In this document: piece by piece, positions 26,959 through 32,459 of the stretch
Position numbering within the stretch: position 1 is the first letter of the stretch
How the letters are laid out: every line of letters begins with the position of its first letter
Assembly: GCF_000328705.1 (NCBI RefSeq)
Contig: NC_019673.1
Span: 9,125,501 to 9,189,500 of the forward strand
Origin: Saccharothrix espanaensis DSM 44229
Lineage (GTDB): Bacteria; Actinomycetota; Actinomycetes; Mycobacteriales; Pseudonocardiaceae
Reading direction: 5' to 3'
DNA: 64,000 bases
Position numbers and translations under genes: made by a program
Notes under the pieces: generated by a model
What the model was told of the DNA's origin: nothing
What the model saw: the letters and a program-made list of their open reading frames with translations, nothing else
The model's database searches: none

Positions 26959-27999
26959 ATGACATCCACGGGCGCTGCGGAGACGTCCGCGGCCGAGACG
27001 GCCAAGGGCGGCGAGAGCACGCTCACCGTGCTGCTGGCCCTGGCGGTGAACCTGGCCATCGCGATCATGAAGGCGATCGCCGGCGTGATCACCGGATCGG
27101 CCGCGATGCTCGCCGAAGCCGGGCACTCCGTGGCCGACACGTTCACCGAGGGCCTGCTGCTCACCGCGCTGCGGAGGTCCGAACGGCCGGCGGACCGCCG
27201 GCACCCGTTCGGCTACGGCAAGGACCGGTTCTTCTGGTCGCTGCTCGCTGCGGTGTCGATCTTCGTCTCGGGCGCGGTGTTCGCGTTCTACGAGGGCGTG
27301 CACACGGTGTTCGGCGAGCCGACCGAGCAGACCAGCCCCGGCGTCGGCTACCTGGTGCTGGCGATCGCGTTCGCGCTGGAGTCGGTGTCGTTCACCCAGG
27401 CGTTCCGGCAGGTCCGGCGCGGCGCCCGGGAGGAGGGCCGGTCGGTCGTGGCGTTCCTGCGGATGTCCGACGACCCGACCGTGAAGACGGTGTTCTTCGA
27501 GGACTCGGCCGCGCTGGTCGGCCTGCTGCTCGCGTTCGGCGGGCTGGGCCTGCACGACCTGACGGGGTCGTCGGTGTGGGACGGCGTGGCGTCGCTGCTG
27601 ATCGGCGTGCTGCTGGCGTTCTGCGCGTACGTCCTCGCGGGCACCAACCGGGGCCTGCTGATCGGCCGTCAGGCGGACCCGAAGCTGGTCAAGGCGGTGT
27701 GGGACTACCTGCGCGAGGTGCCCGAGGTGGAGCAGGTGGTGGACCTGCTGACGATGGCCGTGGGCACCGACCGGGTGCTGCTGTGCGCGCGGCTGGACTT
27801 CGACGACGCCCTGTCCGCGGCCGACCTGGAGCGGGCGTGCGTGCGGATCGACGGCGAACTGCGGGCCAGGTGGTCGGACTTGGACGAGGTCTTCCTGGAG
27901 CCGGTGCCCAGGACGGACCCGCACCTGCGCGAACGCGTCCTGGCCAGGTACGGCGACGTCTTCCGGTCCTCGGACGCGCCAGCCCCGGACGGGCGCTAG
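26959..27999 (+). CDS. Cation diffusion facilitator (CDF) transporter
   Basis: A 346-residue CDF exporter with six helices. The helix 2 metal site is in [16 protein letters not shown] (H-x-x-x-D), and [16 protein letters not shown] is the loop signature. Helix 5 has [15 protein letters not shown], where an Glu-Asp pair replaces the usual His-x-x-x-Asp; this occurs in the SLC30A9-like group, and it makes the metal hard to predict. A C-terminal regulatory domain follows ([18 protein letters not shown]). ATG 26959 follows TACGGT and 6 bases, so the transcript is probably leaderless. Its stop shares CTAG with dcd. Confidence 0.88.
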
Positions 28000-28577
28000 C
28001 GCCGGGTGTCGCTGCGGTGGAAGTTGAGGTGGGCGCGCGAGGGCGTCGGCCCGCGCTGCCCCTGGTAGCGCGACCCGGCCTGCGCCGAGCCGTACGGGAA
28101 CTCGGCGGCGGAGCTGAGCCGGAACAGGCACAGCTGCCCGATCTTCATGCCGGGCCAGAGCGTGATCGGCAGGTTGGCCACGTTCGACAGTTCCAGCGTG
28201 ATGTGCCCGGAGAACCCGGGGTCGATGAACCCGGCCGTCGAGTGCGTGAGCAACCCGAGCCGCCCCAACGACGACTTGCCCTCCAACCGACCCGCCAGGT
28301 CGTCGGGCAACGTGACCAGCTCGAACGTCGACCCGAGCACGAACTCGCCGGGGTGCAGCACGAACGGCTCGCCGTCCTGCGGCTCCACGAGGGAGGTCAG
28401 GTCGTCCTGCTGGATCGACGGGTCGATGTGCGTGTACCGGGTGTTGTTGAACACCCGGAAGAACCGGTCGAGTCGGACGTCGATGCTGGACGGCTGCACC
28501 ATGACGTCGTCGAACGGCTCCAGCACGAGGCGGCCCGAGTCGACCTCTTTGCGTAGATCGCGGTCACTCAACAACAC
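27996..28577 (-). CDS. dcd: dCTP deaminase
   Basis: Dcd deaminates dCTP to dUTP, and in actinobacteria often also hydrolyses it to dUMP. The protein begins with [11 protein letters not shown] and has [16 protein letters not shown], the catalytic segment [18 protein letters not shown] and [19 protein letters not shown] 28577 is chosen over GTG 28583 because family members start directly at LLSDRD and because TAGGCT lies 6 bases before it. The stop overlaps the CDF stop in a shared CTAG. The tRNA-Gly gene lies divergently upstream. Confidence 0.94.
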
Positions 28578-28615
28578 GACCACAGCCTATGTGTATGATC
28601 GGACCCGCACCGCAC

Positions 28616-28686
28616 GCGGGTGTAGTTCATTGGTAGAACGACAGCTTCCCAAGCTGTAGAGGCGGGTTCGATTCCCGTCACCCGCT
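28616..28686 (+). tRNA. tRNA-Gly (CCC anticodon)
   Basis: A 71-base cloverleaf: acceptor arms GCGGGTG (28616-28622) and CACCCGC (28679-28685), anticodon stem ACAGC/GCTGT enclosing the 7-base loop TTCCCAA, giving anticodon CCC, and T-arm GGCGGGTTCGATTCCCGTC. The discriminator is T, and CCA is not encoded. Its 3' half plus terminator recurs about 1 kb downstream. Confidence 0.95.
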
Positions 28687-28737
28687 CGTAGCGCGAAGGC
28701 CCAGGTCAGAGTCGACGACCTGGGCCTTTGTCATGTC
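28642..28737 (+). repeat. Copy A of a ~95-bp direct repeat (tRNA-Gly 3' half plus terminator)
   Basis: From the anticodon stem of tRNA-Gly through its terminator, this segment recurs at 29668-29762 at about 85% identity by eye. The core from GGCGGGTTCGATTCC to AGAGTC is nearly identical, with one deleted C in copy B. The intact tRNA at this end and a partial tRNA at the other is the usual geometry of an element inserted into a tRNA 3' end. Confidence 0.75.
28696..28730 (+). terminator. Terminator of tRNA-Gly
   Basis: Inverted repeat AAGGCCCAGGTC / GACCTGGGCCTT with a 9-base loop, followed by TTG. It lies 10 bp after the tRNA. A copy with one G-U change is at 29721-29753. Confidence 0.88.
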
Positions 28738-28906
28738 CCGCGCGCGAGCCGAGAGCGCTCCGCGTCCTGGTACCCGGCGAAACCCCCGCGCACTGCGGCA
28801 ACCCCGGAAGGTCGCGGACCGGAAGCGAGATCGCCGCCCCGATGACGACAGCGTCGCGCGCACATCGCACGACTCCGGACCCCGGACTGGGATACGGTTG
28901 TGCACA

Positions 28907-28990
28907 GTCTTCCCCGCGCGAGCGGGGGTGATCCGCCCTGATGACGGAGTCGAGCGGGATACGCCGTCCCGCCGGAGCGGGACCTGCTCG
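28907..28990 (+). CRISPR. Orphan CRISPR remnant, type I-E-like repeat
   Basis: Bases 28907-28935 are a 29-base repeat (GTCTTCCCCGCGC, then GAGCGGGGGTGATCCG) that matches the actinobacterial type I-E pattern: GT start, CCCCGC/GCGGGG stem and GTGATCCG end. Thirty bases later (28966-28990) there is a degenerate second copy, GTCCCGCCGGAGCGGGAC plus CTGCTCG, keeping the stem-loop. So one spacer (28936-28965) may survive. No cas gene is in the window. Confidence 0.55.
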
Positions 28991-29061
28991 GTATGATCCA
29001 CAACGCAGGTCAACGGGTCCTCCTCAACGCGCGTCGCCCAGTTGTTCCGGAGGCCGAGACC

Positions 29062-29637
29062 ATGACCAGTGCACGCCGCTTGGCCGGCTACACGTTGGAC
29101 GATTGGGAGCGCCTTGAGCCTGCGGAAGGCCACCGCGTCGAACTGGTCGACGGGCGGTTCGTGGTGAACGCCGCCCCAGCCGTGGCCCACCAACGTGTCG
29201 CGGATCGGCTGTGCCGACTGCTGGATGACGCAGTCGCGGACGGCGGCATGGAGGCTGTGACAGCGGTCGGCGTGCGCATCGCACCAGGGCTGGGCTACAT
29301 CCCGGACCTGGTTGTCTGCACGGAGTTGGTGGAGACCCCCACGGTCGCCGTGGAATTGGTCGCGCTCGCGGTCGAGGTGGTCAGCCCGTCCACGGCACGT
29401 CGCGATCGGCTGGAGAAGCCCGCCGCGTTCGCCGCAGCGGGGGTCCCTGCCTTCTGGCGGGTCGAAATCGGAGGCGTAGATGGTCCGATCATCTACTGCT
29501 ACCGGTTGGACCAAGACGTGTACGTGGAGGTGGCGACGCTCCGAGCCGGTGCCACCGGGACGGCGGACGTCCCCGGTGGGATGACCGTGACGGTCGACCC
29601 CGCCGACCTGATCGGCTCACGCCGCCCCGGTTCGTAA
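29062..29637 (+). CDS. Uma2-family PD-(D/E)XK nuclease-like protein
   Basis: A 191-residue Uma2 (DUF820) protein. The restriction-endonuclease-like core is visible: VELVDGRFVVN (residue 25), YIPDLVV (catalytic Asp, near 80), VEVVSPSTARRDRLEKPAAF (catalytic E-x-V and Lys, near 110) and GVPAFWRVE. The molecular role of this widespread family is unsettled. ATG 29062 has a GGAGG site. It lies between the two tRNA-Gly repeats, and its third-position GC is lower than that of the flanking genes, both compatible with acquisition. Confidence 0.85.
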   Translation: MTSARRLAGYTLDDWERLEPAEGHRVELVDGRFVVNAAPAVAHQRVADRLCRLLDDAVADGGMEAVTAVGVRIAPGLGYIPDLVVCTELVETPTVAVELVALAVEVVSPSTARRDRLEKPAAFAAAGVPAFWRVEIGGVDGPIIYCYRLDQDVYVEVATLRAGATGTADVPGGMTVTVDPADLIGSRRPGS

Positions 29638-29667
29638 TCGCGACAGAACTCTGTGGTGACACCCCCC

Positions 29668-29762
29668 AGGCTTCCTGGGCTGTAACGGCGGGTTCGATTC
29701 CGTCACCCGCTCGTAGCGCGAAGGCCCAGGTCAGAGTCAACGATCTGGGCCTTCGTCGTGAT
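29668..29762 (+). pseudogene. Partial tRNA-Gly copy with terminator (repeat copy B)
   Basis: This is the distal copy of the tRNA-Gly 3' half and terminator. The anticodon loop is altered (GCTTCCTGGGC), the T-arm lacks one C, and there is no acceptor or D-arm partner upstream, so it cannot fold as a tRNA. The stretch 29763-30030 that follows holds no gene I can support. Confidence 0.75.
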
Positions 29763-30030
29763 CCGGGTCCCGATCCCCGCTCCGGCACTCGCCACCCCGG
29801 CGGGTGTCCCGGGCCCATCGTGGCACGAGCCCCACCGCCCGGTATCGCGCCCAGGCCGGCGGTCGACGGGCCGTTGGCTATGTCGTCCTGGACTCCGCGC
29901 GGTCCGTCATGGACGGCCGGTGCGCCTATGCCACAGGCGAGTGGAATGGGTCCATGGCGGCAGGGGTGACACGGCGCTCTTGGTGCGCCAAGATGCGGGC
30001 CTCATTTCGCGCGATCAAGCCGAGGACAGA

Positions 30031-30519
30031 ATGCCACTGCGCCGCAGGACCGGGGTAGACACCACGTGGTTGGACGAGACGGCGAGCCCCAACGGCAAGC
30101 CGCTTCCGCCGAGCGTCGTCAGGACGTGGGCGGCGTACGTGGACGCCGCGAAGCGGGCCCGTCGCCGGCACGGCTTACTGGAGGTCACGTCGATCCTTGC
30201 GGCAGCGGCGATTCCGCCGGTGGCCCTGCTGACCGAACTGGACCTGGCGACTGCGCTGCTCGGGGCGACGGTGGTCGCGTCGAGCGCGCTGCGCCCGCTG
30301 TTCCAGTGGAAGGAGAACTGGCTGGCCAGAACGAATGTGCGTTACACGATCGAGCGCGAGGTGAATCTTTACACCATCGGGGCCGCCCCTTACGACGACC
30401 CCGATTCGGACCGGAAGCTCGTGCAAACTGTCGAACAAATCGCATTCGACGAACGTCAGAAGTGGGTGGCGCGCCGAGAGGTGACCACTGACGCCCCACG
30501 CTCGCCCGAGTCCTCGTGA
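30031..30519 (+). CDS. SLATT-domain (DUF4231-type) membrane protein
   Basis: A 162-residue protein with two membrane helices (LLEVTSILAAAAIPPVALLT and LATALLGATVVASSALRP) followed by FQWKENWLARTNVRYTIERE and a helical tail. This matches the SLATT family, predicted membrane effectors associated with nucleotide-signalling and other defence systems. No nucleotidyltransferase, reverse transcriptase or other SLATT partner is adjacent, so here it is an orphan. The start at ATG 30031 has GAGG 5 bases upstream; a longer frame upstream looks non-coding. Confidence 0.75.
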   Translation: MPLRRRTGVDTTWLDETASPNGKPLPPSVVRTWAAYVDAAKRARRRHGLLEVTSILAAAAIPPVALLTELDLATALLGATVVASSALRPLFQWKENWLARTNVRYTIEREVNLYTIGAAPYDDPDSDRKLVQTVEQIAFDERQKWVARREVTTDAPRSPESS

Positions 30520-30561
30520 TCGGGTACCGGAGCGGCGGACTTCTCGATCGTCGCCCCAAGT

Positions 30562-30963
30562 TCAGAGCGCGGGCAGCAGAGCGGCTCCCCAGAGCTTCAG
30601 CCAGGTGTACGCGCCGGCGGTGAACCGGTCGAACGGGCCGCGCGGCTCCTCACGCTTGAGCACCACCCTGCCCCGGGCCAGGACGGCGATCACCACCACC
30701 ACAACCCCGACCGTCACGACCGGCGCGGTGGTCAGGCCCCACCAGAGCAGCAGACCGACGGCCAGGAGTTGTGCCCACGCGAACAGCACGACGGCCAGGT
30801 CACCGAAGACCTCCACGAGGAACCCGCCGACCGCACGCCCCGCGACCAGCGGAGCCCGCACGACTGCCGTCAGCGCACGCTTGACCCACCACGGACGGTC
30901 CGACGCACGGCGCGCGGCGTGGACCGCCTTACGTGCGGCAGCCAACTTCGACTCACGGGTCAC
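30562..30963 (-). CDS. Small membrane protein of unknown function
   Basis: A 133-residue protein with a basic, helical N-terminus (TRESKLAAARKAVHAARRAS) and two membrane helices (FGDLAVVLFAWAQLLAVGLLLWWGL and APVVTVGVVVVVIAVLA). I do not recognise the family. The start is GTG 30963. The gene converges with the SLATT gene (42 bp apart) and lies next to the toxin-antitoxin pair, but it reads in the same direction as that pair and could be transcribed after it. Confidence 0.55.
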   Translation of the reverse strand: MTRESKLAAARKAVHAARRASDRPWWVKRALTAVVRAPLVAGRAVGGFLVEVFGDLAVVLFAWAQLLAVGLLLWWGLTTAPVVTVGVVVVVIAVLARGRVVLKREEPRGPFDRFTAGAYTWLKLWGAALLPAL

Positions 30964-31004
30964 GTCCCCATGATCGTCCGGCTCGCCCGCCGCACCAAGG
31001 CCGG

Positions 31005-31379
31005 CTACGACAGGCGATCGCGCACGAACCCGGCCATCGCCGCCTGGTCCGCGTCACCCCTGGCCGCGAGCACGATCAGCGCCACCAGCTCCGACTGGGT
31101 GATCATCGGGACGAAGCCGTTGACGTAGCAGAACGTCAGCATGCCGATGGCCGCCGTGCGCTTGTTCCCGTCCATGAACGGGTGGTGCACCTTCACGACC
31201 CCGTAGGCCAGGGCCGCGGCCTTGTCTGCGACGTCCGGGTACAGCTCGTCGCCGCCGAACGTCCGGGCGGGCGCGGCGACGGCGGACTCCAACCCTTCCG
31301 GCTTGATCACCGGGCCGGCGCCGTGGGGGCGTGACAGCTCGATGAGCTCGGCGGAGGTCAGGTACCTCCAGTCGGCCAT
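31005..31379 (-). CDS. Doc-type (Fic-fold) toxin
   Basis: A 124-residue Doc homologue. The catalytic motif VHHPFMDGNKRTAAIGM (residues about 63-79) is complete (H-P-F-x-x-G-N-K-R). Doc phosphorylates elongation factor Tu and stops translation. The motif is intact, so the protein is probably active unless neutralised. The ATG at 31379 overlaps the antitoxin stop in TGATG, so translation is coupled to the antitoxin. Confidence 0.9.
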   Translation of the reverse strand: MADWRYLTSAELIELSRPHGAGPVIKPEGLESAVAAPARTFGGDELYPDVADKAAALAYGVVKVHHPFMDGNKRTAAIGMLTFCYVNGFVPMITQSELVALIVLAARGDADQAAMAGFVRDRLS

Positions 31380-31546
31380 CAGATCTCGCCCAGGAGCTTC
31401 AAGGCCGCGCGGTACTCGGCGTCGATCTTCGCGGCGGCTTCGGCCAGGGACAGCGGAGCCGGGCCGGGGCGGGTCAGGTCGCGGGCGGGCAGCAGGTCGC
31501 GGGCGGCACGGCGGTCCGCGGCGGGCACGATCGCGGGCTCGGTCAT
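31379..31546 (-). CDS. Doc antitoxin (Phd-like, small)
   Basis: A 55-residue protein directly upstream of doc, overlapping by one base. It has the helical C-terminus expected of a toxin-binding antitoxin (LSLAEAAAKIDAEYRAALKL). The N-terminal DNA-binding domain of a full Phd is not obvious. ATG 31546 has an excellent ribosome-binding site (AAGGAGGG). The function is inferred from position and from the coupled start. Confidence 0.78.
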   Translation of the reverse strand: MTEPAIVPAADRRAARDLLPARDLTRPGPAPLSLAEAAAKIDAEYRAALKLLGEI

Positions 31547-31614
31547 CGGTCCCTCCTTCGCGGACCGCGAGAGCTTCGCAGGTCGACAGGGTCGCCGAAA
31601 GTCGTTTCCCGACC

Positions 31615-32016
31615 TCACTCGCCGCTGCGCCACGCCTCGTTGTAGCGGCGTTCGCGTTCCTGGTCGGACTCGGTGTTGCGGGCTTTTCGGAACGTGCTGG
31701 CCGACGCTCTGGGGTAGCCGTACTTGGTCATGCGGTGGTCGGTGGACTCGATCGCGTACGAGACCGCGAAGTACACGCCGACCACCAGGCCCAGGGAGCC
31801 GCAGGCCACGGCCAGGGGCAGGGGGGAGTCCAGGCCCCACACCAGGGCCAGGGCGATGACCACCGTCAGCGGGAGGACCTGGAGGAACGCCCGCACCACG
31901 AACCACGCCAGCCACGTCCGCTTGGTGGCCTGGTGGAAGACCCACTCGCGGTACTTCAGCGGCAGGCGGCCGCCGACCAGGTACCAGGCCCGCAGCGGGA
32001 TCGGGGGGCTGGTCAT
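31615..32016 (-). CDS. DUF5313-type small membrane protein
   Basis: A 133-residue protein with two membrane helices (FLQVLPLTVVIALALVWGL and AVACGSLGLVVGVYFAVSYAI) and a basic C-terminus (STFRKARNTESDQERERR). The start RAWYLVGGRLPLKYREWVFH fits DUF5313. The function is unknown. The ATG (32016) overlaps the stop of the MarR regulator in an ATGA, so these two genes are coupled, and the membrane protein may be its main target. Confidence 0.7.
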   Translation of the reverse strand: MTSPPIPLRAWYLVGGRLPLKYREWVFHQATKRTWLAWFVVRAFLQVLPLTVVIALALVWGLDSPLPLAVACGSLGLVVGVYFAVSYAIESTDHRMTKYGYPRASASTFRKARNTESDQERERRYNEAWRSGE

Positions 32017-32459
32017 GAGGTCGCCGCGATCACTCGGGTCAGCACTCGGTGCAGGTCTTCCAGTTCGGCCAGTGTCATCCCGAGCCGCTCGACCACGGCC
32101 GGGGGGATGGCCAACGCCTGTTCGCGCAACGCCGCGCCCTCCTCGGTCAACGCCACGGCCAGTTGCCGCTCGTCCGACGACGCCCGGCCGCGGGTCACGT
32201 ACCCGATCGACTCCAGCCGCTTGAGCAGCGGCGACAGGGTCGCGGGCTCCAGCGCGAGCAGTCCGGCCAGCTCTTTCACCGACAGCGGTTCGCTGCCCCA
32301 CAGCGCCAGCATCACCAGGTACTGGGGGTGGGTGAGCCCCATGGGCTCCAGCAGCGGCCGGTAGAGGGCCACCACGTTCCGGGACGCGATGGAGAGCGCG
32401 AAGCAGACCTGCCGGTCCAGGGCCAGCGGATCGCCCTCGAAAGTTTGTGTACTAATCAT
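32013..32459 (-). CDS. MarR/OhrR-like redox regulator
   Basis: A 148-residue MarR protein with DRQVCFALSIASRNVVALYR at the N-terminus, where the Cys corresponds to the peroxide-sensing Cys of OhrR. The winged HTH is in LSVKELAGLLALEPATLSPLLKRLE. OhrR normally controls an ohr peroxidase; none is here, and instead a DUF5313 gene overlaps it. The start codon ATG 32459 lies in a perfect palindrome, and TACTGT 8 bases upstream suggests a leaderless start. Confidence 0.85.
   Translation of the reverse strand: MISTQTFEGDPLALDRQVCFALSIASRNVVALYRPLLEPMGLTHPQYLVMLALWGSEPLSVKELAGLLALEPATLSPLLKRLESIGYVTRGRASSDERQLAVALTEEGAALREQALAIPPAVVERLGMTLAELEDLHRVLTRVIAATS

Follow-up and report, generated by a model that had tools for sequence, protein, structure and literature searches.

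A probable AICE-type integration scar beside tRNA-Gly(CCC) in Saccharothrix espanaensis

The repeated tRNA end and the interval it encloses

The question raised by this locus is whether the short interval following a tRNA-Gly(CCC) gene of Saccharothrix espanaensis DSM 44229 is what remains of an integrated mobile element, and if so, of which type. The gene is the only tRNA called by ARAGORN in the window, by which we mean the whole 64-kb stretch of DNA analysed, and a preliminary description of the window had reported that its 3' half is present a second time, together with the terminator, about 1.03 kb downstream. The genome paper for S. espanaensis makes no mention of AICEs, CRISPR or genomic islands.

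The repeat proved to be real, as the two copies align with one 1-nt gap and a local alignment score of 65.5, compared with a maximum of 13.5 from 300 shuffles of the downstream kilobase, and lie 1025–1026 bp apart (Table 1). It spans tRNA positions 29–72 plus some 48 nt beyond, and the terminator therefore belongs to the att core. When the tRNA and terminator were searched against the whole 9,360,653-bp genome, the partial copy was the second-best match (E 3.5e-27). The tRNA is intact at one end only, as had been described; the right copy is without the 5' half, carries substitutions in the anticodon region and has lost 1 nt, and ARAGORN does not call it. The lineage-specific spacer (GTAGCGC) is common to both copies, and their terminator loops are almost identical.

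Table 1. Features at and around the tRNA-Gly(CCC) locus (window positions).
Feature	Position	Strand	Basis
dcd (dCTP deaminase), conserved gene to the left of the integration site	27996..28583	-	Pfam DCD 1.7e-45; adjoins tRNA-Gly(CCC) in 25/25 genomes
Intact tRNA-Gly(CCC) on the attL side, restored target gene	28616..28687	+	ARAGORN; identical 72 nt in 25/25 Saccharothrix genomes
Left att repeat copy: tRNA 3' half, spacer GTAGCGC and terminator	28644..28735	+	Alignment to 29670-29760
Terminator hairpin 3' of the intact tRNA	28693..28731	+	RNA fold -28.8 kcal/mol, z -5.6
Single well-kept CRISPR repeat, then 33-nt spacer and degenerate second repeat	28907..28934	+	27/28 to the genome's own array repeat
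Uma2-family nuclease gene, retained cargo	29062..29637	+	Pfam PF05685 2e-23; 88% aa identity with Uma2 of G008 at this locus
Right att repeat copy (attR side): partial tRNA without 5' half, and terminator	29670..29760	+	Alignment; G007 has the same Uma2 / partial-tRNA order
Second terminator hairpin	29718..29756	+	RNA fold -28.3 kcal/mol, z -7.0
DUF4231 gene, variable DNA beyond attR	30031..30519	+	Pfam 5.8e-14; absent by tblastn at the loci of 24 congeners
Small conserved gene, right-flank mark of the hot spot in most congeners	31615..31918	-	tblastn; 190 bp from the tRNA in G023
marR-like gene, right-flank mark with the small gene	32013..32459		tblastn in congeners

The contents of the interval were also much as reported, with a Uma2 gene and a CRISPR remnant present and no integrase. 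The Uma2 gene is an intact ORF whose start matches that of its homologue in the congener genome G008, and with a dN/dS of 0.125 between the two it is under purifying selection and has been retained by it, though the mobility genes of the element are gone. The term decayed element is consequently apt for the missing mobility genes and not for Uma2 itself. The array in the same genome that matches the CRISPR repeat lies at about C1:2.034 Mb and differs from it by one base, and a decayed counterpart with a different spacer sits before Uma2 in G008. We considered a general link between Uma2 and CRISPR and rejected it, as CRISPR-like repeats are absent upstream of 11 other Uma2 loci. The interval DNA had no match among plasmids.

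An integration hot spot next to dcd in Saccharothrix

We compared the site in the window genome with that in 24 congeners (25 Saccharothrix genomes). On the right side, most congeners have the small gene followed by marR-like, luxR-like and acyl-CoA dehydrogenase genes, and the small gene lies 0.5 kb from the tRNA in G013, 2.9 kb from it in the window and approximately 13 kb away in G008, with the content of the gap varying from genome to genome. This makes the tRNA-Gly(CCC) beside dcd an integration hot spot in Saccharothrix. In G023 the tRNA and terminator are followed after only 190 bp by the conserved right-flank gene, and this is the empty site that an insertion calls for among relatives. 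At this locus G021, which is the nearest relative in our tree, has a single tRNA and neither a further att copy nor Uma2, though it should be noted that 2.6 kb of other DNA fills the gap and the site is empty only with respect to this element. Far from all relatives carrying both copies and the same interval, Uma2 is found at the site in only two of the 24 congeners, G007 and G008.

In G008 the tRNA and terminator are followed by a 391-aa tyrosine integrase (PF00589), an HTH_17 protein and RepSA (PF20199, 3.9e-151), which together make up an intact AICE core. About 11 kb further on comes a second terminator, which matches the one next to the tRNA in the sister genome G007, and then the decayed CRISPR repeat, Uma2 and another terminator; from this order, G008 has the arrangement of the window with an AICE added at the tRNA. 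In G007, a partial tRNA copy comes after the 3' end of Uma2. G017 and G024 each have such a copy of their own, at 6.3 and 1.4 kb respectively, G022 has a degraded att copy at 0.85 kb, and in G004 the terminator is displaced, with no AICE core recognised. Integrase fragments were seen in G006 and G017 in a by-eye comparison to the G008 integrase, and an arm-type sequence (GTCACCG...) follows the terminator in G005–G008, G014, G015 and G017 and is unrecognisable in the window. Several stages can be seen among these genomes: the site empty, occupied by an AICE core, occupied by an AICE that lies in tandem to an older remnant, and reduced to a bare att scar.

We also note that G011 (L050), G018 (L043) and G024 (L038) have the same excisionase-like (antitoxin-like) gene directly 3' of tRNA-Gly(CCC), with a PIN-like gene, judged by eye, beside it in G011 and G024, and that in G024 the excisionase-like gene is flanked by an identical att pair of 42 nt.

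Relation to AICEs and CIMEs

In 45 of the 200 genomes of the family that we sampled, the G008 integrase has a relative with an E value of 1e-60 or lower. When ARAGORN was run on the 23 loci where this relative is at least 59% identical (L072–L093 and L095), tRNA-Gly(CCC) was found within the fetched flank beside the integrase at all of them except L088, whereas five loci at 50–53% integrase identity (L097–L101) have tRNA-Gly(UCC) instead. In the 20 loci whose sequence we inspected, a hairpin-like sequence usually comes after the tRNA, with short repeated sites between this sequence and int. Beyond Saccharothrix, for which the hot spot is documented here, related integrases lie at the same tRNA elsewhere in the Pseudonocardiaceae.

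The window's own genome also has an intact AICE of about 9.7 kb, located at tRNA-Gly(UCC) (C1:1427.7–1437.5 kb; locus L060, G000:C1:1425000-1440000) and encoding Int, HTH_17, RepSA, FtsK and GntR proteins, with an integrase 48% identical to that of G008. From the anticodon arm, its att repeat extends to 50–60 nt beyond the 3' end of the tRNA, and the att repeat of the window is of the same design, a tRNA 3' half plus downstream nucleotides, although the window has no such intact element and involves the other isoacceptor.

Empty and differently filled sites, the AICE core in G008, the att copies that congeners have of their own, and the same att architecture at tRNA-Gly(UCC) bear out the earlier reading of the locus as a mobile-element integration scar. 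The interval is very probably the CIME-like residue of an integrative element that targeted a tRNA and has since decayed; an AICE whose tyrosine integrase was specific for tRNA-Gly(CCC) is the most likely type. Like AICEs of the pSAM2/RepSA type, the window shows the 3' end of a tRNA gene as target and an att repeat, and the use of tRNA-Gly(CCC) at 22 of 23 loci accords with the tRNA 3' ends used by AICE integrases. However, where the intact relatives in G008 and at tRNA-Gly(UCC) carry Int, the HTH_17 excisionase-like protein and RepSA, the window has only att repeats and cargo; we found no integrase, excisionase, rep or tra sequence in 28740–29670, and for this reason refer to the remnant as an AICE-type scar and not as an AICE. 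The intact tRNA with its 3' fragment as a direct repeat, along with the empty site in G023, is what defines an integration scar, and this is a clear but ordinary case of an already known type.

The 3' ends of tRNAs are common targets of AICEs, which can also be arranged in tandem (PMC3218068), and a three-step scheme has been put forward in which an ICE integrates, decays to an att-flanked CIME, and is then joined by a further element through accretion (PMC5704250). Following this scheme, the core of the incoming element, made up of the tRNA 3' half and terminator, would have recombined with the chromosomal tRNA-Gly(CCC), restoring the tRNA and terminator on the left and displacing the chromosome's own 3' half and terminator to the right. 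The integrase, excisionase, replication and transfer genes would later have been deleted, and some 0.93 kb would have stayed behind as a CIME-like remnant that could no longer move, with Uma2 as its one retained gene and a CRISPR mini-array in decay, and in G008 a new AICE would have accreted beside the older remnant. We infer the order of these deletions, as well as membership of the lost integrase in the integrase family of the G008 AICE. It should be noted that the incoming element would need to have carried a terminator nearly identical to that of the host, because both copies share the lineage-specific spacer and loop.

The cargo of the window lies between attL and attR without an integrase, as an att-flanked segment having neither recombination nor transfer genes, and in this it resembles a CIME, from which it differs in that its right att has core substitutions and a deletion. 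The tandem of an AICE with the same cargo in G008 is what the accretion scheme predicts, and is only consistent with mobilisation of the window remnant by a related element. For the terminator inside the att repeat we infer a functional meaning, in that it suggests how such elements may keep the host tRNA properly terminated. A broader generalisation, to which we would give little credence, is that the att cores of this AICE family carry a working tRNA terminator, with each integration restoring the tRNA and swapping the terminator, and that Uma2 and the mini-CRISPR might then be selected, defence-like cargo that stays at the site and is re-mobilised by later AICEs.

Descent of the remnant and other origins

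The age of the Uma2 unit was considered using a tree from dcd, luxR and acyl-CoA dehydrogenase (the branch of G008 is inflated in this, as the fetched locus ends before the last two genes), in which the window groups with G021, and G007 and G008 are in another clade. The dS values for the window and G008 are 0.53 for Uma2, 0.43 for dcd and 0.68 for marR, and those for the window and G007 are 0.54 for luxR and 0.27 for acyl-CoA dehydrogenase. As a pattern of sequence divergence these would fit one old insertion with later losses, and the remnant is perhaps shared by descent with G007 and G008. It is possible, if somewhat doubtful, that Uma2 and the CRISPR remnant arrived independently in the window lineage and in that of G007 and G008 on related elements, since the unit is absent from the site in the other 22 congeners, including all near relatives, and descent needs several losses. 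On the other hand, the Uma2 dS is within the range of the flanking core genes (0.27–0.68), and the order of CRISPR remnant, Uma2 and partial tRNA or terminator is common to both lineages.

An origin of the insert in a temperate phage, a satellite or a different island with a tRNA target, and not in an AICE, seems unlikely to us. It would agree with the absence of any AICE gene from the interval and with the displaced terminator of G004, and the apparent toxin-antitoxin pair between the att copies of G024 suggests that more than one type of element may use the site. However, the Uma2 protein had no match among 50,697 phage records, and the integrases at this tRNA in the family form one coherent group, accompanied by RepSA in G008. 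The alternative offered in the preliminary description, simple tandem duplication of the tRNA 3' half and downstream DNA followed by decay, would explain why the spacer and nearly all of the terminator loop are common to both copies, but it should have doubled what follows the tRNA and is contradicted by the single Uma2 and CRISPR repeat and by flanks that diverge directly after the two terminators, and with the congeners' partial tRNA copies at quite different distances and an AICE core at the same site in G008, we consider it highly improbable.

Returning to the integration scar, over a short stretch the sequence 3' of the right terminator is nearer to G018, G021 and G023 than is that 3' of the left, a resemblance which is suggestive of the right side being displaced chromosome. 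In a test of terminator exchange between lineages, the correlation with core divergence was 0.23 downstream and 0.35 upstream of the tRNA, and both are significant. Beyond attR, positions 29761–31600 contain the DUF4231 gene, a gene for a 133-aa protein that has no match in Pfam, and a gene of Fic/Doc type preceded by a small partner; by tblastn, none of these was found at this locus in the 24 congeners, and the segment may be an additional, older insertion. G007 has at this tRNA a 1137-aa cargo protein (L036:2370-5783) with trypsin-like peptidase, STAND NTPase and TPR domains, which from its predicted domains resembles a defence-type architecture.
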